A stretch of 64,000 nt of DNA from a bacterium SCSIO 12827 (lineage in GTDB: Bacteria; Pseudomonadota; Alphaproteobacteria; Rhodospirillales; Casp-alpha2), in assembly GCA_024397995.1 (NCBI GenBank), contig CP073746.1, positions 1,116,001 to 1,180,000 of the forward strand. Direction: 5' to 3'. Shown here piece after piece: positions 2,557 through 41,110 of the stretch (position 1 is its first letter; each line of letters opens with the position of its first letter). Below the pieces are notes generated by a model. That model worked only from the letters and a program-made list of their open reading frames with translations. It was not told the origin of the DNA and made no database searches. Made by a program: the position numbers and the translations under genes.

Positions 2557-4659
2557 TCAGAACACCTTGATCATGAACAGGATCATCACGATGCACATGG
2601 TTACCAGGATGGAGCCCATGGCGGCGGCCTGCTGACCGGTGCGCTCGGCCTTGGTCAGCTGTTCTTCGCCGCGGCCCTCGATATCCTGAATTTCCAGTTC
2701 GGCGGCGGTAAACTCCGCGACAGCATCCTCGAAGCCTTCGATGTCCTCCCGCCGGCGGTCGGCGTTGTCCATCAGGTCGAACAGTTCGGGCAACGACCCA
2801 CGGCGGACCAGACGGGGAATTTCCCGCTCTATCTCCTTACGGGTGCTGCGCGAATGATACGCGTTGATGGCCGGGCCGAGATGCCCGCCGACCCAGCTTG
2901 CCAGACCGTAGACAGGTTCGACCCGCAGCTTCCACTGAATGAAGGCAAGCAACGACAGCATGCCGATGGTCTGGGTATCGGGGTTTTCCGAGGCCAGGGC
3001 CTTGAGGTGGGGGTTGATGTCTTCCTTGAAGCGCGCGGTGATGAAGGCGGCGACATGGCGGTCGAGCGGCTTGGACTTCAGATCCTGCGTGTTGGCGGCG
3101 CGATCCAGCGCCGGCAACAGGTGGTCGGTATCCAGCACGTACTCTTGCAGCAGAAGCGGACTTTGGCAGGGCAGAGACGGATTGCTTTCATACAGGCAGC
3201 GCTCGATGCCGAAGCCCGGGTCCTTGTTGTTGAGAACGATCTTGAGCTGCGAGAAGTTCTTCTGATGGATCGAGGCTTCCGGCGCATAGGCCAGTTGTGA
3301 TTGGAACCACAGGTCGGGAATGTCCTTGGCGATGATTTCCGCCGGGATCTGCGGATCGCCCGTGCGCAGCAGGTCCATGGCGAAGGCGGCGCCGAACCCG
3401 TCGACCATGAAGGAAAACCCCTTGAAGCGGATGGGGCCCAAGGGATCCATGAGAATGGCGACACGGGTTACGATCATTTCGTCCGAGCCGGCGAAGGATC
3501 CGGCCTGGGCATTGGCCACGTCGAGCACGTTCTTGATGGCGTTGGCCAGGTTGACGTCCTCGACCGAACGCCGGAGCCAGGTATCGAAACTGTCGTGGCG
3601 GATCGCCTTGGCGGCGTCGGGTACGTGTTTGCTGAAGGCGTCGGCCAGTTGCCGCACGCTCTGATACGGGCGGCCCATAAAGGTCAGGGGAGTCTGTCCG
3701 CGCTTGCCCGCGCGTTTCTGCTGTGGCGACATCTTTCGGCCCGATAGCCACAGGTCGATTTCCTCGGGCCCCCAGCGTTGCTGGGGGTCGTCGCCGAGCA
3801 TGCCGCGCAGCGGCTCCAGCAGGGATAGGGGCAGGTTCTCGTTGCCGGTAATCGCCGCGTAGGACCCCAGTTCCAGCTTCTCTGCCAGAATTTTTTCCGA
3901 ACCTTCGACGGCCCCCGGTTCCTTGTCCAGAATAAGACCGACGATGGCGACGGCGAAAGCATAGGCGTCGTCGCGGGAATTGCCGACGCCGCGCCCGGCC
4001 GGGGGCGCCATGGCGCGTTCCGCCGGCTCATACACCGCCGGCTGGTCGTAGCCTGGGGGTGACGAATAGCATTCGCCGAAGGCGATCTGTTGCCGCCCGG
4101 CATCCATGAAGAACAGATTGTCACGGCGGATTGCCCGGTGCGCGACGCCGATCGAGGCCATTTCCTGCAATGCGCCGGCCAGCGGCTCGATCACCTTGCG
4201 CGGCAGGTCGTATTCGGAAATCCGGAACGTGCCTTTCTGCAGCACGCGTCCGCCAAGGGGGCGTTCGAGGATCAGGATCATGGTGCGCTGGCGGATCAGA
4301 GGCCAAAACTCGACCTCCCATTCCAGGACGCCGACCAACGCCTTGATGCCGGAGCCGCGCAACGACGTCATGGCGCCCAGCCGCGTCGGCAGTCCCGGGT
4401 TGCAGATCAGCGCGAACACGGGACGGTCGATGTCGCGGCGGTCCTCGGCCATGAAGGCCTTGGCGGAAGGAGAATCGAGATCGGGCAGCGGCGTTTTGGG
4501 GTCGACGGCGAAGCGATCTTTAATCAGAACAGGGCGCAGGCTTTCCGCGGACGGGATGCCGTCGCCGGGTTCCGTGTCGGCGTTCATGCCTTCCGGTGGC
4601 GCGCCCTCTTCGGGCGGCGGTCCCCCGGGGGCGGCCTGTGCTGTGGCGGTTTCAGCCAT
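2557..4659 (-). CDS. Tail-anchored protein kinase-like protein (probable pseudokinase)
   Basis: 700 aa. Residues 80-310 resemble a Ser/Thr protein kinase fold, but the catalytic signatures are degraded. The HRD-like loop reads HRAIRRDN at 174-181, with Ala replacing the catalytic Asp at 176, and the DFG position reads AFG at 193-195. No clear VAIK lysine or glycine loop is seen. A long helical middle of unknown type follows, and the C-terminus ends in a single hydrophobic helix (about 681-699), so the protein should be tail-anchored with its bulk in the cytoplasm. It is followed two bases later by a small membrane protein gene, and lies upstream of neither a phosphatase nor an FHA gene. Kinase-fold assignment is fairly confident; lack of catalysis is inferred from the missing residues. 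Confidence 0.78.
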   Translation of the reverse strand: MAETATAQAAPGGPPPEEGAPPEGMNADTEPGDGIPSAESLRPVLIKDRFAVDPKTPLPDLDSPSAKAFMAEDRRDIDRPVFALICNPGLPTRLGAMTSLRGSGIKALVGVLEWEVEFWPLIRQRTMILILERPLGGRVLQKGTFRISEYDLPRKVIEPLAGALQEMASIGVAHRAIRRDNLFFMDAGRQQIAFGECYSSPPGYDQPAVYEPAERAMAPPAGRGVGNSRDDAYAFAVAIVGLILDKEPGAVEGSEKILAEKLELGSYAAITGNENLPLSLLEPLRGMLGDDPQQRWGPEEIDLWLSGRKMSPQQKRAGKRGQTPLTFMGRPYQSVRQLADAFSKHVPDAAKAIRHDSFDTWLRRSVEDVNLANAIKNVLDVANAQAGSFAGSDEMIVTRVAILMDPLGPIRFKGFSFMVDGFGAAFAMDLLRTGDPQIPAEIIAKDIPDLWFQSQLAYAPEASIHQKNFSQLKIVLNNKDPGFGIERCLYESNPSLPCQSPLLLQEYVLDTDHLLPALDRAANTQDLKSKPLDRHVAAFITARFKEDINPHLKALASENPDTQTIGMLSLLAFIQWKLRVEPVYGLASWVGGHLGPAINAYHSRSTRKEIEREIPRLVRRGSLPELFDLMDNADRRREDIEGFEDAVAEFTAAELEIQDIEGRGEEQLTKAERTGQQAAAMGSILVTMCIVMILFMIKVF

Positions 4660-32975: not shown

Positions 32976-34847
32976 TTAGTCGGCGGCGTCGCTTGCGGAA
33001 ACATCCTCCGCCACGGCCAGCGTGACCGTGAACACGGTGCCGCCGCCGGGATTTTGTTCGATGTTCAGGCGGCCGTCGTTGACCTGCACCAACTGGCGGC
33101 ATAGCGCCAAACCCACGCCGGTGCCGATTTCGCCCTTGGACCCGGTCGCCAGATCGGCGCTGGCGCCCGACAGCACGCGGCTGACCAAGTCCTGGTCCAT
33201 GCCGATGCCGGTGTCGGCGATCACGACCTTCGCGTCCTTACCGTCGTGACAGACGCGGACGGTCACTTCCCCGTCTTTGGGCGTGAATTTGAGCGCGTTG
33301 TTCACCAGATTGCGGATCACCGTCGACATTTGATGACGGTCGATCCTGACCTTGACCGGCGGCCCCGCCTCGATCCGCAGTGTGACGCCACGCAGGGTCG
33401 CGTCGGCGGAATAGACGCCCGCCGTCTGCCGGGCCAGGGCGCCAAGGTCCGTGACCTCCAGGTTTGTCTGGCGCTGGCCCGTGCGCACCAGGGCCCATTC
33501 CAGAAGGTTTTCCAGAACCTCGGATGCGTTGCGCCCGGCCTCGTACAGCTTTTCACCGTATTCCTGCACCGTCTTGGGATCAAGCTTGCGGCTGGGATCG
33601 GCCAGCAGCTGGGCGTAGATCAGCAGCGGATTGAATAGATTTCGGATGTCATGGCCGATGACGGTCAGCAGGACGTCCTTCTGGCTGTTGCTTTCCTCCA
33701 ACTCGTCCGTGCGTTGGGCAAGCGCCCCCTGGGCCTGTTCCCGTTCTTCCATTTCCCGGCGCAGACGCTGGTTGAACGCCGCCAGCCATAGCCCGGCCAG
33801 CAAGGCCAGCAGAGCGACAATCGTGGCACCCAGAAGCGCCTTGGGCATCCAGGCGGGCAACGTGCGTCTGTCGTCCTGCTCATAGATGAACCCGTCGAGC
33901 GACATGTCCTTGGGCAGCAGGCCCAGCCCGGCATAATGCTGAGCGATGCGCTCCCAGCGTGCCGGGTTGATGAAGCCCACGGGGACGACATCGGCCAGGA
34001 TCAGGTTGGCGGATTGCCGCGCCTCGAACAGCAGGTTGTCGCGTGCCTTCCGCTTGCCGTAGGTGGCGAGGATAAGGTCGACGATCTCTTCCTGGTGTTT
34101 CATGGCATAGCGCCAGCCATCAAGCGAGGCATCGAGAAAGGCCTGGACCATCTTGGGGTCCTTTTCCAGCAGGCCTTCCGTGGTGAACAGGTTGTCGCCG
34201 TAGAAATCGACACCGCCGTCGATGGGGCGGAACAGGCGAACCGGCCCGACTTCCTTTGCGTATTGATATGGTTCATCCGTGGAATAGATGCTCATGGCAT
34301 CGACGCGCCCGGACTTCAGGTCCTCGACGTCGAAGGTATGGTCGACAAAATTCATCTGGCTGATGTCGAGTCCCTCGGCGGCGAAATAGGCGCTCAATTC
34401 CGTCTCATGCGGGGCGACCATGATCTTGCCGCGGGCGAGCTGATGAATGTTGCGGATATCGTTGCGGGCATCGAGCATCAGGGTCAGCGGCGAATGCTGA
34501 TAGATCACGGCCAGCACCACCACGGGAATGCCGGCGGCGCGCATCATCAAAAGGTCGGTGGTGCCGACGCCGAACTCGGCCTTGCCTTGGGCTACGGATT
34601 CCATCGGCTTGTCGCCGGGCATTGCCGGCAGGATCGTCACATCCAAGCCCCGGTCGCGGTAATATCCCTTGGCCTTGGCCGCGTAATAGCCGGCGAACTG
34701 GAACTGATGCGCCCATTTCAGCTGCAGGGTGACCTTGGTCAGCTTGCGCGGGGCATCCTCGGCTGCCCATGTTGGCGCTGGGCGCCCCAGGCCAACGAAC
34801 AAAGCCGCCGCGAACACGGCAACGAGCAGCCAACGCGATGTCCGCAT
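32976..34847 (-). CDS. Histidine kinase with periplasmic NMT1/THI5-like sensor domain
   Basis: About 623 aa. The ATG at 34847 is chosen because GGGG lies five bases before it and it yields a clean signal sequence (MRTSRWLLVAVFAAALFVGL); an ATG 11 codons upstream is possible. Residues about 37-290 form an NMT1/THI5-type periplasmic substrate-binding domain (LKWAHQFQFAGYYAAKAKGY; the GVGTTDLLMMRAAGIPV block). One transmembrane helix follows (about 336-358), then a coiled coil and a kinase core: H399 (VIGHDIRNLFNPLL), N box NLVNNALKFTP, G1 DTGIGM, G2 GTGVGLALCRQL. No receiver gene is adjacent. NMT1-type domains usually bind pyrimidines or other small ligands for transporters; here one is fused directly to a kinase. 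Confidence 0.92.
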   Translation of the reverse strand: MRTSRWLLVAVFAAALFVGLGRPAPTWAAEDAPRKLTKVTLQLKWAHQFQFAGYYAAKAKGYYRDRGLDVTILPAMPGDKPMESVAQGKAEFGVGTTDLLMMRAAGIPVVVLAVIYQHSPLTLMLDARNDIRNIHQLARGKIMVAPHETELSAYFAAEGLDISQMNFVDHTFDVEDLKSGRVDAMSIYSTDEPYQYAKEVGPVRLFRPIDGGVDFYGDNLFTTEGLLEKDPKMVQAFLDASLDGWRYAMKHQEEIVDLILATYGKRKARDNLLFEARQSANLILADVVPVGFINPARWERIAQHYAGLGLLPKDMSLDGFIYEQDDRRTLPAWMPKALLGATIVALLALLAGLWLAAFNQRLRREMEEREQAQGALAQRTDELEESNSQKDVLLTVIGHDIRNLFNPLLIYAQLLADPSRKLDPKTVQEYGEKLYEAGRNASEVLENLLEWALVRTGQRQTNLEVTDLGALARQTAGVYSADATLRGVTLRIEAGPPVKVRIDRHQMSTVIRNLVNNALKFTPKDGEVTVRVCHDGKDAKVVIADTGIGMDQDLVSRVLSGASADLATGSKGEIGTGVGLALCRQLVQVNDGRLNIEQNPGGGTVFTVTLAVAEDVSASDAAD

Positions 34848-35015
34848 GTTGCCCCTGTATGCCGCCTTTGCGCCTGTCATGGTCCGCGTTCGTTGTTGGA
34901 AGAATGGCACCGGCTCGTATCCGGTGGAAGAGAGCCGCGCACCGTGCCCGGCCTGGAAAGGAATGCTGATCAAATAGGGTGCAAAATTGAGCATAATTTT
35001 ACAAGGGGGACTAAT

Positions 35016-35033
35016 ATGAAAGCCGGATTTTAG
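35016..35033 (+). other. Possible five-codon leader ORF before the CULT gene
   Basis: AAGGGGG is followed six bases later by ATG AAA GCC GGA TTT TAG (peptide MKAGF), ending 11 bases before the CULT GTG. It is out of frame with it. The strong ribosome site suggests real translation or reinitiation coupling, but such short ORFs arise by chance. Confidence 0.3.
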
Positions 35034-35044
35034 GGAGTGGGCCC

Positions 35045-35416
35045 GTGTTCGATGCCCAACTGGATACCGCAGCTGCGACGAAGTCCGCGGAAAAGCCCGA
35101 TGACGGCCTTTATTGCGCGCGCTGCGGGCATCTGGTGACGCGCCGCCGCTGGGCATTCGCACCCGACGGCGGGCACGAGCGAATCTGCGCGAATCCGGCG
35201 GGCCGCATGTTCACGGTCGTCTGTTTCCTGGAGGCGCCGGGAGCAACCGATCTCGGCGCGCCGACCGAGGAATTCACCTGGTTCGCCGGCCATGCCTGGA
35301 ACTTCGCCCATTGCCGGGGTTGTGGGGACCATCTCGGCTGGCGTTATACAAGCGATCTTGATCCGCCGGTATTCTGGGGCCTCATCAAGGACCGTCTCAG
35401 CAGCTTGTCGAAATAG
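35045..35416 (+). CDS. Bacterial cereblon-type CULT-domain protein
   Basis: 123 aa, consisting almost only of a CULT domain, the thalidomide-binding fold of human cereblon. The zinc cysteines are C24-x-x-C27 and C90-x-x-C93, and the aromatic ligand cage is W79, W85, W99 and Y101 (FTWFAGHAW, GDHLGWRY). From memory, these positions coincide with those of the structurally known Magnetospirillum gryphiswaldense MsCI4. The CULT pocket binds glutarimide-like and uracil-like ligands; the bacterial function is unknown. GTG start at 35045 after GGGAG. The Rdx gene begins 10 bases after its stop. The N-terminal 20 residues are low-complexity. Confidence 0.95.
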   Translation: MFDAQLDTAAATKSAEKPDDGLYCARCGHLVTRRRWAFAPDGGHERICANPAGRMFTVVCFLEAPGATDLGAPTEEFTWFAGHAWNFAHCRGCGDHLGWRYTSDLDPPVFWGLIKDRLSSLSK

Positions 35417-35425
35417 GAACTACCC

Positions 35426-35707
35426 ATGTCCAAACCGCTTGTCGTGATCACCTATTGCACGCGCTGCCGCTGGCTGCTGCGGGCAGGCTGGATGGCGCAG
35501 GAACTGCTTGCCACGTTCGAGAATGATCTGGGCGGTGTGACCCTGGTGCCCGACGACGTGGGCGGGCGGTTCAGTGTGCGCGTCGGCGATACCGTCGTTT
35601 GGGACCGAAAGCGCGATGGCGGCTTTCCCGAGATCAAGGTCTTGAAGCAGCGGGTGCGTGATATCGCGGTGCCTGACAAGGAACTGGGGCATTCCGAAGG
35701 CGGGTGA
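35426..35707 (+). CDS. SelW/SelT/SelH-family (Rdx) thioredoxin-like protein
   Basis: 93 aa. The N-terminal redox motif is C11-T-R-C14 (ITYCTRCRWLLRAGWMAQEL), with Cys where eukaryotic SelW has selenocysteine. The family's second motif, GGRFSVRVGDTVVWDRKRDG followed by GFPEIKVLKQRVRD, is intact. Rdx proteins have a thioredoxin-like fold and are thought to act in thiol redox reactions; the bacterial targets are not established. It lies 10 bases after the CULT gene and 45 bases before the HAD gene, all on the same strand. Confidence 0.93.
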   Translation: MSKPLVVITYCTRCRWLLRAGWMAQELLATFENDLGGVTLVPDDVGGRFSVRVGDTVVWDRKRDGGFPEIKVLKQRVRDIAVPDKELGHSEGG

Positions 35708-35752
35708 CCTTGCCCCGTTCCCGTGGCGGGCGAAAAATGGCATAATCGGCCC

Positions 35753-36526
35753 ATGGCAACGACGCTTGAAGGGATCCTGTTCGACCTTGAAGGCGTCCTT
35801 TACCAGGGAGGGACGTCCATCCCTGGTGCGGCCGAAACCCTGGCGTGGACCCGGGGCCGGGGCCTGAAAACCCGTTTTCTCACCAATACCACCTTGCGTC
35901 CGCGCGCCGCAGTATGGCGGCGGCTGTGCGACATGGACCTGCCCGTGGATGCGGACGATATCGTCACCCCGGCCATGGCGGCGGTGTCGCTGTTGCGCGA
36001 CCGCGGCCTGCGGCGGGTGCATCTGGCGGCGGAACCGGCCCTGGCCGAGGATTTCGCCGGCTTCGATCTGGTCGACGTCGATCCCGACGCCGTCGTCATG
36101 GGCGATCTGGATGCCGGGTTCGATCGGGCCCACCTGTCCGACTTGGCGGGCATGCTGCTCGACGGGGCGGTGCTGGTGGCGCTCCACAAGAACCGCCTGT
36201 CGCGGCCGGGCGGAGATCTGATCATCGACCTGGGGGCCTATGTGGCGGCGCTGGAGTATGCCGCCGGGGTGGACGCCGTGATTATGGGTAAACCGTCGGC
36301 GGATTTCTTCGCCCGCGTGCTGGTCGACATGGGTATTTCCGCCACCGCCGGCCTGATGATCGGGGACGACGTGGAATCGGACATCGCCGGTGCCCAGGCG
36401 GCGGGCCTGCGGGCGGTGCAGGTCATGACGGGAAAGTACGATCCGCGTACGGCGGGCCGCGCCCTGCCGGATGCCATGATCGCCAGCGTCGCCGACCTGC
36501 CCGGCGCCATCGCCGCTTGGACCTAG
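35753..36526 (+). CDS. HAD-superfamily IIA hydrolase-like protein
   Basis: About 257 aa. Similar to LHPP/TIGR01458-type HAD phosphatases. Motif I reads FDLEGVLYQGG: the nucleophile Asp is present but the usual second Asp (D+2) is Glu. Motif II is FLTNTTLRP, the motif III Lys is in GKPSADFF, and motif IV is IGDDVESDIAGAQAAG. The cap between motifs II and III is of the C2 type. The ATG at 35753 was chosen by family length; a GTG ten codons upstream is possible. It probably belongs to the CULT-Rdx run. Substrate unknown. Confidence 0.87.
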   Translation: MATTLEGILFDLEGVLYQGGTSIPGAAETLAWTRGRGLKTRFLTNTTLRPRAAVWRRLCDMDLPVDADDIVTPAMAAVSLLRDRGLRRVHLAAEPALAEDFAGFDLVDVDPDAVVMGDLDAGFDRAHLSDLAGMLLDGAVLVALHKNRLSRPGGDLIIDLGAYVAALEYAAGVDAVIMGKPSADFFARVLVDMGISATAGLMIGDDVESDIAGAQAAGLRAVQVMTGKYDPRTAGRALPDAMIASVADLPGAIAAWT

Positions 36527-36588
36527 GGGGCGTTTGTTGCTACCGTCCGGGCCGTTCAGTGAAGAAGAAACCATGAAGGAGACAATCC

Positions 36589-38271
36589 ATGGATCTGGTG
36601 ATCCGAGGTGCTGACATCTATGACGGTCGGGGCGGCGCCCCGTACAAGGGCGACGTCGGCGTCGTGGACGGGCGCATCGCCGCCGTCGGCACGGTTGATG
36701 TAGAAGGTACCGAGGAAATCGACGCTTCGGGCTTGGCCCTGATGCCCGGGATCATCGACAGCCATACCCATTTCGACGCGCAGATCACCTGGGACCCCTG
36801 GTGCACGCCGTCGCCGGCCTTGGGCGTGACCAGCGTGCTGATCGGCAATTGCGGGTTCACCATCGCGCCCTGCAAGGCGCCGGACCGCGACCTGATCATG
36901 AAGAACCTGGTACAGGTCGAAGGCATGTCGCTGGACGTGCTGCGCTCGGGCATCGCCTGGGATTTTGAAACCTTCCCCGAATACCTGGACATGCTGGAAG
37001 CGCGCGGCGCGGCGCTCAACGTCGGCGCCTTCCTGGGCCATTCGTCCCTGCGCACCTATGTGATGGGCGATGCGGCGACGGAACGCGCCGCCAACGACGA
37101 CGAAATCAAGACCATGGCGGACATCGTCCGCGCCGCCATGAAGGCCGGGGCCGTCGGCTTCGCAACCTCGACAGCGCCGCAACACAACGGCTGGGGCGGC
37201 GTGCCCATGCCGTCGCGTCTGGCCGACGCCCGTGAATTGGAAACTCTGGTCACCGCCATGGGCGAGGACAGGCGCGGCGTGTTCATGCTGACCAAGGGCA
37301 ACACCACCGACGTGCCCTACCTGGAAACCGTCGCCGCCAAGTCGGGCCGGCCGGTGATGATCGCGGCCCTGCTGCACAACCCGACCAACCCGGAAGGCAC
37401 CTTCAAGGACCTGGCCGCCGTCGCCGCCGCCCGTGCCAACGGGCGGGAGTTGTGGGGGCAGGTGTCCTGCTGTCCGCTGTACATGGATTTCTCACTGAAA
37501 TCCGCCTACCCGCTGGAAGGGCTCGCGGCCTGGAAACCGGCCATGGAGGCCTCGGGCGAGGCGCTCAAGGCCGTCTATGCCTCCGACGCCTTCCGCCAGG
37601 CGGTGAAGGATGAACTGGCCGGCCCGGCCGGCGTGCGCCTGTTCAACGGCGAATGGGACAAGATCGAGGTCACGGAAACGGCGCGGCCGGAAAACAAGGC
37701 GTTTGATCAGAAGAAGGTCAAGGACCTGGCCGATGCCGCCAGCAAGCATCCCTTGGACTGGATGCTCGACCTGGCCATTTCGGAAGATCTGGAAACGCTG
37801 TTCATGGCCGAATTGCTGAACACGGACGAGGACGCCGTGGGCCGCATGATGCAGGACCCCAACGCTTCCGTCGCCCTGTCCGACGCGGGAGCACACTTGA
37901 CGTTCTTCTGCGACGCCGGTTTCGGCCTGCATCTGATGGGCCATTGGAGCCGCGACCTGGGCAAGCTGACCCTGGAACAGGCGACCCATGAGCTGACCGC
38001 CAAGCCCGCCGCCATCTACCGCATCCCGGAGCGGGGCGAGATCAAGGAAGGCTATCACGCCGACCTGTTGCTGTTCGATCCCAAGACCGTGGGACGTGGG
38101 CCCAAGCGCCGAGTTCACGACCTGCCCGGCGGTGGTCCTCGCCTGACCACGGACGCCGTCGGTGTGGAAGGCGTCTGGGTCAACGGCGTGCGCGTGGCCG
38201 ATGCCAAAGGCCCGGTTGGTGCGAAGGGCGACCCGTTGCCGGGCTGCGTGTTGCGCGCCTTCGGCAGCTGA
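36589..38271 (+). CDS. D-aminoacylase-like amidohydrolase
   Basis: 560 aa amidohydrolase related to N-acyl-D-amino-acid deacylases. Metal-binding HTH (GIIDSHTHFDAQ), the NCGF cysteine ligand (VLIGNCGFTIAP), GHSSLR and the late Asp (LSDAGAHLTFF) are present, and a C-terminal beta-sandwich strand pair (IKEGYHADLLLFDP) closes the fold. It hydrolyses an amide, imide or hydantoin-like bond in the cytoplasm; the exact substrate is unknown. First of three plus-strand genes (spacing 23 and 10 bases) with two dehydrogenases, so the product is probably oxidised further. A strong AAGGAG precedes the ATG. Confidence 0.9.
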   Translation: MDLVIRGADIYDGRGGAPYKGDVGVVDGRIAAVGTVDVEGTEEIDASGLALMPGIIDSHTHFDAQITWDPWCTPSPALGVTSVLIGNCGFTIAPCKAPDRDLIMKNLVQVEGMSLDVLRSGIAWDFETFPEYLDMLEARGAALNVGAFLGHSSLRTYVMGDAATERAANDDEIKTMADIVRAAMKAGAVGFATSTAPQHNGWGGVPMPSRLADARELETLVTAMGEDRRGVFMLTKGNTTDVPYLETVAAKSGRPVMIAALLHNPTNPEGTFKDLAAVAAARANGRELWGQVSCCPLYMDFSLKSAYPLEGLAAWKPAMEASGEALKAVYASDAFRQAVKDELAGPAGVRLFNGEWDKIEVTETARPENKAFDQKKVKDLADAASKHPLDWMLDLAISEDLETLFMAELLNTDEDAVGRMMQDPNASVALSDAGAHLTFFCDAGFGLHLMGHWSRDLGKLTLEQATHELTAKPAAIYRIPERGEIKEGYHADLLLFDPKTVGRGPKRRVHDLPGGGPRLTTDAVGVEGVWVNGVRVADAKGPVGAKGDPLPGCVLRAFGS

Positions 38272-38294
38272 GCAAACAGAGAGGATCGTATACG

Positions 38295-39182
38295 ATGACC
38301 GCATCCTGCATCGCCGTCATGGCGCCGGGTGACATGGGCCATGCCGTGGGCAAGGTCCTGGGCGATCACGGACATGATGTCATTACCTGTCTGGCCGGGC
38401 GCAGCAAGCGCACGCGAGGCCTGGCGGCCAAGGGAAATTTCCGCGATGTGCCTGACCTGGAAACCCTGGTCACGCAGGCGGATATGATCCTGTCCATCCT
38501 GCCGCCGGCCCGGGCCATCAAGCAGGCGAAAGACATGGCGGTGGCCATGAAGGCCCAGGACACGACGGCGGTCTACGTCGACTGCAACGCCGTGTCGCCG
38601 GGCACGGCGGCGGAAACGGCGGCGATCCTGGCAGGCGTGGGTGCTCCCTTCATCGACTGCGGCATCATCGGCCTGGCCCCGGGGCCAGGGCGGTCGACCA
38701 AGTTCTATGTCTCCGGCCCGGACACGGCGCCGATGACGGCGCTGGACGGGCAAGGCATCACGGTGATCGACCTGGGTGACGGGATCGGCCGGGCGTCGGG
38801 CCTGAAGATGGCCTATGCGGGCCTGACCAAGGGGACGAACGCGCTGTACACGGCGGTCCTTATGTTGGCCCAGCGCCTGGACCTGTTCGACGAGCTGATC
38901 GACGAGTTCGAAGACAGCCAGCAGACAGCGCTCAAGAACATGCGTGCGCGGGTGCAGCGCCTGCCTGCCGATGCCGGCCGCTGGGTCCGCGAGATGGAGG
39001 AAATCGCCGATACCTACCGCGAGGCGGGCCTGCCCGGCGGATTTCACGACGCGGCTGCCGACATCTTCCGCATCCTGGACGCCACACCCTTCGGCGAGGA
39101 GACGCGGGAGACCATCGACCCCGACCGCACCATGGAAGACTCGATTCCCGTCTACGTCGATCACATCAAGCCCAAGGCCTAG
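38295..39182 (+). CDS. NAD(P)-dependent oxidoreductase, 6-phosphogluconate-dehydrogenase fold with DUF1932
   Basis: 295 aa. An N-terminal Rossmann domain (IAVMAPGDMGHAVGKVLGDHG) with the beta-hydroxyacid dehydrogenase features DMILSILPPA and YVDCNAVSPGTAAE is followed by the all-helical DUF1932-type C-terminal domain (GLTKGTNALYTAVLMLAQ). Relatives oxidise 3-hydroxy acids, phosphogluconate-like sugars or reduce imines. The context suggests a step after the amidohydrolase. 23 bases after the previous gene and 10 before the next. Confidence 0.9.
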   Translation: MTASCIAVMAPGDMGHAVGKVLGDHGHDVITCLAGRSKRTRGLAAKGNFRDVPDLETLVTQADMILSILPPARAIKQAKDMAVAMKAQDTTAVYVDCNAVSPGTAAETAAILAGVGAPFIDCGIIGLAPGPGRSTKFYVSGPDTAPMTALDGQGITVIDLGDGIGRASGLKMAYAGLTKGTNALYTAVLMLAQRLDLFDELIDEFEDSQQTALKNMRARVQRLPADAGRWVREMEEIADTYREAGLPGGFHDAAADIFRILDATPFGEETRETIDPDRTMEDSIPVYVDHIKPKA

Positions 39183-39192
39183 GGAGCCACCG

Positions 39193-40227
39193 ATGACCGA
39201 GTCCGCGACCTTGAAACAGCTGAGCCTGGGCGATGTCCATGATCTTGCCTTCAATTGCCTGATCGCCAACGGCTGCGACGATGCCAATGCCCAAGCCATC
39301 GCCGACAACCTGACGGCGGCGGAACGGGACCGGTCGGAATCCCACGGCCTGTTCCGGCTGCCGGGCTATGTCGCGTCCCTGCAAAGCGGCAAGGCCGACG
39401 GTAAGGCGCAGCCCCGCATCGAGGACGCGGCCCCCGGCGTGGTGCGGGTCGACGCCCTGGGCGGTTTCGCGCCCCTGGCGTTGGAGGTCGGGCGCAAGCC
39501 CCTGGTCGCCAAGGCGAGGACCCAAGGCGTCGCGGCCCTGGCATTGGTCGGCGTGCATCATTTCGCGGCATTGTGGCCCGAGGTCGAAGCCCTGGCCCGT
39601 GACGGCCTGGTCGCCTTCGCCTGTACCTCGACCCTGCCGTTCGCGGCCCCGGCGGGTGGTGCCAAGCCCCTGTTCGGGACCGATCCCGTGGCCTTCGCTT
39701 GGCCGCGCAAGGACGGCTCCCCTGTGGTGTTTGACATGGCGACCACGTCAATGGCGCGGGGCGAGGTGATGATCGCCGCCCGTGAAGGCCACGACGTGCC
39801 GCTCGGCGTCGGCCTGGACGCCGAGGGCCAGCCGACCCGCGACCCCAAGGCGATTTTGGAGGGCGGTGTGATGTTGCCCTTCGGCGGCTACAAGGGATCG
39901 GCCATTTCCATGATGGTCGAACTGCTGGCGGGGGCGCTGATCGGCGAAGTGTTTTCGTTCCAGGCCGGGCAGGCCGACAACCGCGACGGCGGGCCGACCC
40001 GGGGCGGCGAATTCATCCTGGCCATTGATCCGGCGCGTACGTCCGGCGGGGCCGACTGGCTGGGGCAGGGCGAGGGGTTGTTTCAGCAGATGCTGGAAAC
40101 GGGGGCCGCCCCCGGCGCCGTGCGCCTGCCGGGTGACCGGCGATACGCCAACCGCGAAAAAACGCCCCGGGACGGCGTGGCCATCCCGGGGGCGCTTTAC
40201 GACAAGATTGTTGAACTGACGGGTTAG
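39193..40227 (+). CDS. Ldh-family (malate/L-lactate/ureidoglycolate-type) dehydrogenase
   Basis: 344 aa. The ATG at 39193 follows AGGGAGCC and gives MTESATLKQLSLGDVHDLAF. Family features: ERDRSESHGLFRLPGYVASL, the VGVHHFAALW active-site region with conserved His, and the LPFGGYKGSAISMMVELLAG loop. Members use NAD(P)+ to oxidise small 2-hydroxy acids such as malate, sulpholactate or ureidoglycolate. Its stop lies four bases from the convergent tauD-type stop, so the two operons of this region meet here. Confidence 0.92.
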   Translation: MTESATLKQLSLGDVHDLAFNCLIANGCDDANAQAIADNLTAAERDRSESHGLFRLPGYVASLQSGKADGKAQPRIEDAAPGVVRVDALGGFAPLALEVGRKPLVAKARTQGVAALALVGVHHFAALWPEVEALARDGLVAFACTSTLPFAAPAGGAKPLFGTDPVAFAWPRKDGSPVVFDMATTSMARGEVMIAAREGHDVPLGVGLDAEGQPTRDPKAILEGGVMLPFGGYKGSAISMMVELLAGALIGEVFSFQAGQADNRDGGPTRGGEFILAIDPARTSGGADWLGQGEGLFQQMLETGAAPGAVRLPGDRRYANREKTPRDGVAIPGALYDKIVELTG

Positions 40228-40231
40228 CGCG

Positions 40232-41110
40232 TCAGTAAGGGCGGTCGCCGTTCACCGTCACGCGGTGCATTTCCCGGCGATGGCCGTGGTAATCGTTGAG
40301 CGCGTAGTGATGGGTGCAGCGGTTGTCCCAGAACGCCATGGAACCGACCTGCCAGCGGAACCGGCAGGTGAATTCCGGGCGCTTGATATGAGCCAGCAGG
40401 TAATCGAGGATCGGCCGGCTTTCCTCGGCGCTCATGCCGTCGAAGCGGATCGTGAAGGGCTCGTTCACGTAAAGGCATTTGCGACCGGTTTCCGGATGGG
40501 TGCGGACCACGGGATGGATCGTCTCCTTGGTTTCCATCTGTCCGCCCCGCAGCTTGGTCGAGCGCGTCGCGTTGCGTTCCGAATTGACCTGGGTCAGGAA
40601 GGCGTCGCTGTGCACGGCGTTCAGGGATGACAGCATGCGGCGCATGCCGTCGGTTAGCATCTCATAAGCCAGGTACAGGTTGGCGAACAGGGTGTCGCCG
40701 CCGAACGGCGGGACTTCGCGGGCGTAGAGGATTGATCCCATGGGCGGCTCGGGCAGGAAGGTTGCGTCCGAATGCCAGGTGTCGCCGATGTTGTTCAGGG
40801 CGTCGGCTTCCTTGACCACCTGAAGGATTTCCGGATGACCGGGCAGGGGTTCGTACACCGGGTGGATGTTGAGGCTACCGAAGCGCAGGCCAAAGGCCTT
40901 TTGCTGGTCCGGGGTCAGGTCCTGATCGCGGAAGAAGATGACGAGGTATTCGTTCAATGCCTTGCGGATTTCCGCCAGAACGTCGTCCGAAACGTCCGTC
41001 GACAGGTCGACGCCGTCAATCTCGGCGCCCAACGCACCACAGATGGGCGTGACGCCGATGTGTCGATATCCTTCGGGGACTTTCGACAGCGTGGGCACGG
41101 GGTTCAGCAT
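40232..41110 (-). CDS. TauD/TfdA-family Fe(II)/2-oxoglutarate dioxygenase (first paralogue)
   Basis: 292 aa. Iron ligands H113-x-D115 (DTWHSDATF) and the distal His of WDNRCTHHYALND; the 2-oxoglutarate-binding Arg is in REMHRVTVNGDRP. These enzymes hydroxylate substrates such as taurine, alkyl sulphates or 2,4-D and release sulphite, aldehyde or glyoxylate. Last gene of the minus-strand iclR-TAXI-TRAP-tauD run, 16 bases after the permease, so it probably acts on the imported compound. A second family member lies at 52860. Confidence 0.94.
   Translation of the reverse strand: MLNPVPTLSKVPEGYRHIGVTPICGALGAEIDGVDLSTDVSDDVLAEIRKALNEYLVIFFRDQDLTPDQQKAFGLRFGSLNIHPVYEPLPGHPEILQVVKEADALNNIGDTWHSDATFLPEPPMGSILYAREVPPFGGDTLFANLYLAYEMLTDGMRRMLSSLNAVHSDAFLTQVNSERNATRSTKLRGGQMETKETIHPVVRTHPETGRKCLYVNEPFTIRFDGMSAEESRPILDYLLAHIKRPEFTCRFRWQVGSMAFWDNRCTHHYALNDYHGHRREMHRVTVNGDRPY

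Follow-up and report, generated by a model that had tools for sequence, protein, structure and literature searches.

CULT, the thalidomide-binding domain of animal cereblon, also occurs in bacteria, where the proteins carrying it are described as single-domain and mainly delta-proteobacterial, with few alpha- and gammaproteobacterial members and one from a spirochete (PMC4287342). Its representative MsCI4 (isoform 4 of cereblon in Magnetospirillum gryphiswaldense; PDB 4v2y, 7ps9) is in wide use for studies of cereblon ligands. It binds both uridine and thalidomide with comparable, low micromolar affinity and folds on binding (PMC4449219); eukaryotic cereblon recognizes cyclic imides at C termini, and PCMT1 can give rise to these (PMC13001092, PMC11974815). 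The window analyzed here is a 64,000-nt stretch of the genome of bacterium SCSIO 12827 (contig CP073746.1, positions 1,116,001 to 1,180,000), and the gene at 35045-35416 within it, called CULT below, encodes a real, intact bacterial CULT protein, a further member of this known family. The product is very likely a single-domain, probably cytosolic protein, in which a zinc-stapled beta-tent would carry a three-tryptophan cage for a cyclic-imide or uracil ring.

The reading frame comprises 123 codons and a stop, and is preceded by a ribosome-binding match, GGGAG, at 35033-35037. Its features are given below, with residue counts from 87 CULT open reading frames (ORFs) in 81 loci, that is, the best 80 of 111 confirmed public loci plus the window.

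35045..35416, + strand: CULT-domain protein, 123 residues, GTG start (phmmer, AlphaFold2, Foldseek)
35114..35125, + strand: C24-x-x-C27, the first of two Cys pairs that by homology would bind zinc; invariant in all 87 ORFs
35192..35203, + strand: hairpin motif N50-P-A-G53 (NPxG); N50 in 81, P51 in 83 and G53 in 84 of 87
35279..35347, + strand: aromatic cage W79, W85, W99, Y101; W79 in 81 of 87, W85 and W99 in 87 of 87
35291..35293, + strand: H83, a Tyr in MsCI4 (Y83) and in human cereblon (Y384)
35312..35323, + strand: C90-x-x-C93, the second of these Cys pairs, likewise expected from homology to bind zinc; invariant in all 87 ORFs

Since no CULT model appeared among the Pfam or NCBIfam matches of the protein (three sub-threshold matches in Pfam, including Yippee-Mis18 at 19.2 bits, the cut-off being 26.6, and one weak sub-threshold match in NCBIfam), the family was settled by a sequence search of PDB chains. 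In this search (phmmer), MsCI4 matched with E 2.8e-29, query residues 23-119 aligning with 23-119 of 7ps9_A without any shift, and cereblon followed from E 2.9e-15 (9dom_A), which establishes homology to the thalidomide-binding domain. The AlphaFold2 model (26-row alignment) reached a mean pLDDT of 85.1, and the first 36 Foldseek ranks were MsCI4 or engineered MsCI4 structures, with E down to 8e-12; the model superposed on MsCI4 (4v2y_A) at 0.8 Å over 100 columns with 46% identity, and on 9dom_A and 9dom_C at 1.1 Å. The predicted structure thus adopts the beta-tent fold, judging from its superposition on 4v2y_A, and the protein carries both CxxC pairs (C24/C27 and C90/C93) together with the three cage tryptophans, which align in sequence with those of MsCI4. 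Residues 1-17 are predicted to be disordered (pLDDT <50) and, read by eye, display no obvious hydrophobic signal segment, so the protein is probably cytosolic. The LON domain to which CULT is joined in the cereblon E3 receptor is absent from this 123-residue single domain.

An earlier note on this DNA, drawn from the letters alone, had placed a 123-residue CULT ORF at 35045-35416 and named eight of its residues (C24, C27, W79, W85, C90, C93, W99 and Y101); coordinates and length are right, and all eight residues stand where it put them. It had proposed a CULT profile search and a superposition on MsCI4 as checks: membership is borne out by the PDB sequence matches to MsCI4 and cereblon, and the predicted structure does superpose on MsCI4, the cage residues being aligned by sequence. 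The MsCI4 cage positions that it gave are likewise right, as Trp79, Trp85, Trp99 and Tyr101 are named in PMC8900816. Two details depart from what it led one to expect: Pfam gave sub-threshold matches only, with no CULT model among them, and position 83, which it did not mention, is His.

CULT is a single-copy gene, with one match in its own 3.93-Mb one-contig genome, and it is under purifying selection, as dN/dS lies between 0.12 and 0.25 in each of the 21 pairings among seven members of the genus. It was found in 41 of 100 sampled genomes, its own included (27 of 48 from the same family and 14 of 52 from the rest of the order), and in 21 of 398 genomes of a phylum-wide sample, again with its own (E 1e-6). 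The E-values, the Foldseek matches, the dN/dS values and the matches in 40 of the 99 other sampled relatives exclude chance. A mobile-element reading of CULT was dropped: searches of 50,697 phage and 72,556 plasmid records detected no relative, and 75 pattern matches in viral contigs yielded no confirmed one.

All the residues listed as ligand contacts in MsCI4 (Trp79, Trp85, Trp99, Phe77, Tyr101, Glu76 and Pro51; PMC8900816) are kept by position in the window's protein, and N50 is kept alongside P51 in the motif that PMC4449219 names NPxG. The four cysteines and three tryptophans are all present in 81 of the 87 ORFs, and position 101 is Tyr in 42, Phe in 41 and His in 4. The six ORFs lacking the full set are tandem paralogues from Desulfovibrio/Solidesulfovibrio loci (L072, L079, L090 and L102), where CULT occurs as two or three genes in a row; these six extra copies have neither W79 nor N50, and four of them also lack P51, a pattern of losses that suggests ligand diversification. 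Position 83 is less constant, with Tyr in 48, His in 12, Phe in 8, Gly in 6, Cys in 5, Thr in 4, and Met, Trp, Gln and Ala in one each. Because it varies in this way, Tyr83, replaced by His here, is not treated as defining CULT.

By analogy with MsCI4, the protein is most likely a binder of cyclic-imide or uracil rings, and it is because MsCI4 binds uridine and thalidomide-type glutarimides that binding of both would be expected here. The three-tryptophan cage would grip the edge of the cyclic imide or uracil ring and, if it behaves as in MsCI4, would order itself around the ligand, folding on binding. H83 weighs against this expectation: it replaces a Tyr that in MsCI4 forms hydrogen bonds possibly stabilizing the bound conformation, and the human counterpart of which, Tyr384, is altered in Y384A, a mutant deficient in thalidomide binding (PMC4449219).

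In the window, CULT heads a run of genes that are all on the + strand. The accompanying features, in order, are:

34979..35018, + strand: conserved upstream block of ~40 nt, largely conserved in an alignment of 7 genus members
35426..35707, + strand: Rdx, a protein of the Rdx / SelT-SelW-SelH family with Cys-x-x-Cys (C11/C14); PF10262, E 2.7e-29; TIGR02174, 63.5 bits against a cut-off of 34.2
35723..36526, + strand: HAD-IIA family phosphatase (HAD; TIGR01458), in 4 of the 81 loci, window included
36589..38271, + strand: D-aminoacylase-like amidohydrolase (AMH); PF07969, E 2e-32; D-aminoacylase in PDB, E 3.9e-38
38295..39182, + strand: NAD-binding dehydrogenase with DUF1932 (DH); PF09130, PF03446
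39193..40227, + strand: Ldh_2-type dehydrogenase; PF02615, E 4.3e-96; frame from 39184, ATG read from the sequence

The intergenic gaps of 9 nt (CULT-Rdx), 15 nt (Rdx-HAD), 62 nt (HAD-AMH) and 23 nt (AMH-DH) suggest a single transcript. The upstream block contains TTGAGC (34987-34992) and, after a 17-nt spacer, ACTAAT (35010-35015), which may resemble a promoter by its sequence only; a consensus promoter scan of 34850-40300 called none. On the opposite strand, a divergent gene (32976-35162, start probably near 34847) encodes a histidine kinase to which an NMT1/THI5-like ligand-binding domain is fused.

The alignment of AMH with D-aminoacylase has His-x-His and GNCG stretches common to both, which we take to be metal-site residues. 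The nearest solved relatives of AMH are D-aminoacylases, carbohydrate deacetylases and N-acyl-D-glutamate deacylase, with hydantoinases far behind, and sub-threshold matches to dihydropyrimidinase and dihydroorotase models were also obtained. These last matches in a neighboring gene, together with the binding of uridine by MsCI4 about as well as thalidomide (PMC4449219), are what would be expected if CULT sensed or carried a small molecule (uracil, uridine or a related nucleoside) instead of reading protein damage, but the closer kinship of AMH with the deacylases and deacetylases argues otherwise, and we consider such a role unlikely.

As to a native job, we tentatively propose, at less than even confidence, that CULT recognizes molecules with a cyclic imide, in the likeliest case proteins or peptides damaged at the C terminus, and serves as an accessory, non-catalytic reader. 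Such a role is plausible in bacteria because cereblon recognizes C-terminal cyclic imides, and the position of CULT at the head of a run with Rdx and AMH fits damage handling or cyclic-amide metabolism. In a bolder version, the whole run would form a pathway by which bacteria deal with damage of the cyclic-imide or D-/iso-residue kind, where CULT would read a C-terminal aspartimide or glutarimide, the D-aminoacylase-like enzyme would cut off or open the damaged end, and Rdx and the dehydrogenases would process the product. We rate this pathway as highly improbable. If true, it would provide a physiological setting for bacterial CULT and a ubiquitin-free counterpart of C-terminal imide recognition by cereblon.

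Several observations weigh against the damage-reader role. PCMT and LON_N were found in 99 and 96 of the 100 genomes, respectively, and, both being nearly universal, they cannot co-vary with CULT, which renders their co-occurrence uninformative. In the own genome, none of the matches listed (two of five for PCMT, two of two for LON_N) lies near CULT, the LON_N matches being at 1,791,432 and 3,778,327 and CULT at 1,151,045; the reader role is therefore without genetic support from PCMT or LON_N. Moreover, when each partner was searched in the same 100 genomes (thresholds E 1e-100 for AMH orthologues and E 1e-3 for Rdx), AMH was found without a CULT match in eight genomes, and six readable loci among these keep AMH in place without CULT, two of them with Rdx as well. 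Four of the six display gatB followed by AMH, with gaps of 166-364 bp, and two display plsY followed by Rdx (gaps 118-247 bp), and AMH; in the remaining two genomes, the contig ends at the locus (G033) or gatB is absent from the stretch fetched (G076, from another family). The gatB and plsY contexts seem to derive from a single region in which the pyrB-gatCAB side was inverted, and their interpretation as independent insertions was dropped. CULT is thus dispensable within its conserved family neighborhood, and its partners AMH and Rdx do not depend on it.

Whether the empty sites reflect loss or a gene that was never present was approached through remnants. In L120, the spacer at the expected CULT site (2902-3147) contains a stretch resembling a repeat and matches the C terminus of CULT weakly (E 6e-6 in a two-sequence tblastn search), with 80% nucleotide identity to sister genes over 30 nt; with a search space of 1 Mb, the tblastn match failed to reach 0.01. 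Given this single weak match, loss of CULT, as against its original absence, is not proven.

Where the partners are present together, the arrangement is regular. Rdx occurs in 23 of the 100 genomes, 16 of them in the family, and in all 14 family genomes that also have CULT it follows CULT closely on the same strand; in G017, a DoxX gene separates the two. AMH orthologues occur in 25 genomes, 17 of them with CULT, and in 17 of 17 CULT precedes AMH by no more than 3.2 kb, both genes sharing a strand, across six genera (AMH is split over two contigs in G005 and its frame has one internal TAG in G010). These data bear on whether CULT is no more than a passenger, loosely linked to an old block of synteny (gatCAB, GNAT, CULT, Rdx, AMH, DH), with neighbors that are uninformative on its role, a possibility we regard as serious and just short of probable. 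A passenger would account for the four gatB-AMH and two plsY-Rdx loci without CULT, for the CULT-bearing family genomes without AMH (10 of 27) or Rdx (13 of 27), several of which are incomplete drafts, and for the block-less loci, where no Pfam family recurs in more than 4 of 101 immediate neighbors. The constant order of CULT and AMH in all 17 genomes, the persistence of this gene order through the apparent inversion and the short gaps that suggest one transcript speak for a closer association. The claim of the earlier note that the genomic context would be informative therefore holds only in part, being backed by the conserved neighborhood inside one family and weakened by the dispensability of CULT there.

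Outside the family, the neighbors that recur are specific to lineages. Rdx is near CULT in 12 of the 81 loci, whose coordinates assign all of them to the window's family; the 5 sampled out-of-family genomes with both genes carry them, in every case, on different contigs of draft assemblies, and the phylum sample's 20 other CULT loci (2.2-3.3 kb each) are all without Rdx. Such a distribution tells against a thiol-redox pair of CULT and Rdx, an idea suggested by the related beta-tent enzyme MsrB, which is distantly homologous to CULT (PMC4287342), and by the place of Rdx just 3' of CULT in 14 of 14 family genomes; the 13 of 27 CULT-bearing family genomes without Rdx and the conserved CULT cysteines, which are zinc ligands by homology, add to the objections, and we judge this pairing very unlikely. 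Three CULT-bearing genomes have, on other contigs, Rdx matches interrupted by a single in-frame TGA, which may be selenocysteine forms (G049:C49, G062:C103 and G086:C63).

The Pfam census covered the 61 loci without the family block (two of which, L050 and L062, belong to the window's family by coordinates) and comprised 101 of 108 picked neighbors, proteins of 95-620 residues, omitting near-copies (L060, L061), contig-edge pieces (L078, L080, L083) and doubtful frames (L079, L090). The size limit of 620 residues excluded a soluble lytic transglycosylase, which was covered by BLAST clusters and is encoded on the strand opposite to CULT, no more than 2.5 kb away, in 7 of the 61 loci (L091, L092, L101, L105, L107, L108 and L109; Pfam checked in L091 and L105), apparently restricted to one gammaproteobacterial lineage. 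The other BLAST clusters each appear in at most 4 of the 61 loci, and the recurrent neighbors outside the family look like lineage synteny. A DUF427 (PF04248) protein directly follows CULT in L092 (10332-10646) and lies ~1 kb downstream in L091 (11303-11587); DUF427 is presumably a related beta-rich fold. In addition, a DsrC-like protein is encoded shortly upstream of CULT in the gammaproteobacterial loci L098 (9069-9464) and L110 (4215-4571), and two Paramagnetospirillum loci (L052, L064) differ in neighborhood from the window and include a PpiC-type isomerase.

No description of a CULT-Rdx or CULT-amidohydrolase gene order was found in the titles and abstract starts of the papers listed from the open-licence PMC literature, and the word operon was not found in the excerpt of PMC4287342; the conserved neighborhood with AMH and Rdx is the only element not found described, and as a functional hint it is suggestive at best. 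The source genome's family offers natural pairs with and without CULT at one locus with the same neighbors kept, and CULT lies upstream of a candidate enzyme partner, AMH, in six sampled genera, so that a simple genetic and metabolite comparison is possible.

Among known systems, Yippee/Mis18 (PF03226) proteins are the nearest relatives of CULT (PMC4287342), although their model matches the window's protein only below the cut-off, as given above. The Desulfovibrio/Solidesulfovibrio tandem paralogues share the four cysteines, W85 and W99 with it and differ in that six extra copies have lost both W79 and N50, and four of these P51 too. The thalidomide-binding domain of animal cereblon has the fold predicted here and the tryptophan cage in common with it, whereas animal cereblon also includes a LON domain, and the human protein has Phe at position 101 (PMC8900816) instead of Y101. 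The closest counterpart is MsCI4, likewise a single CULT domain of near-equal length and identical numbering, with the same Cys pairs, W79, W85, W99, Y101, F77, E76 and P51, from which the window's protein differs in overall sequence (46% identity) and in having H83 in place of Y83.
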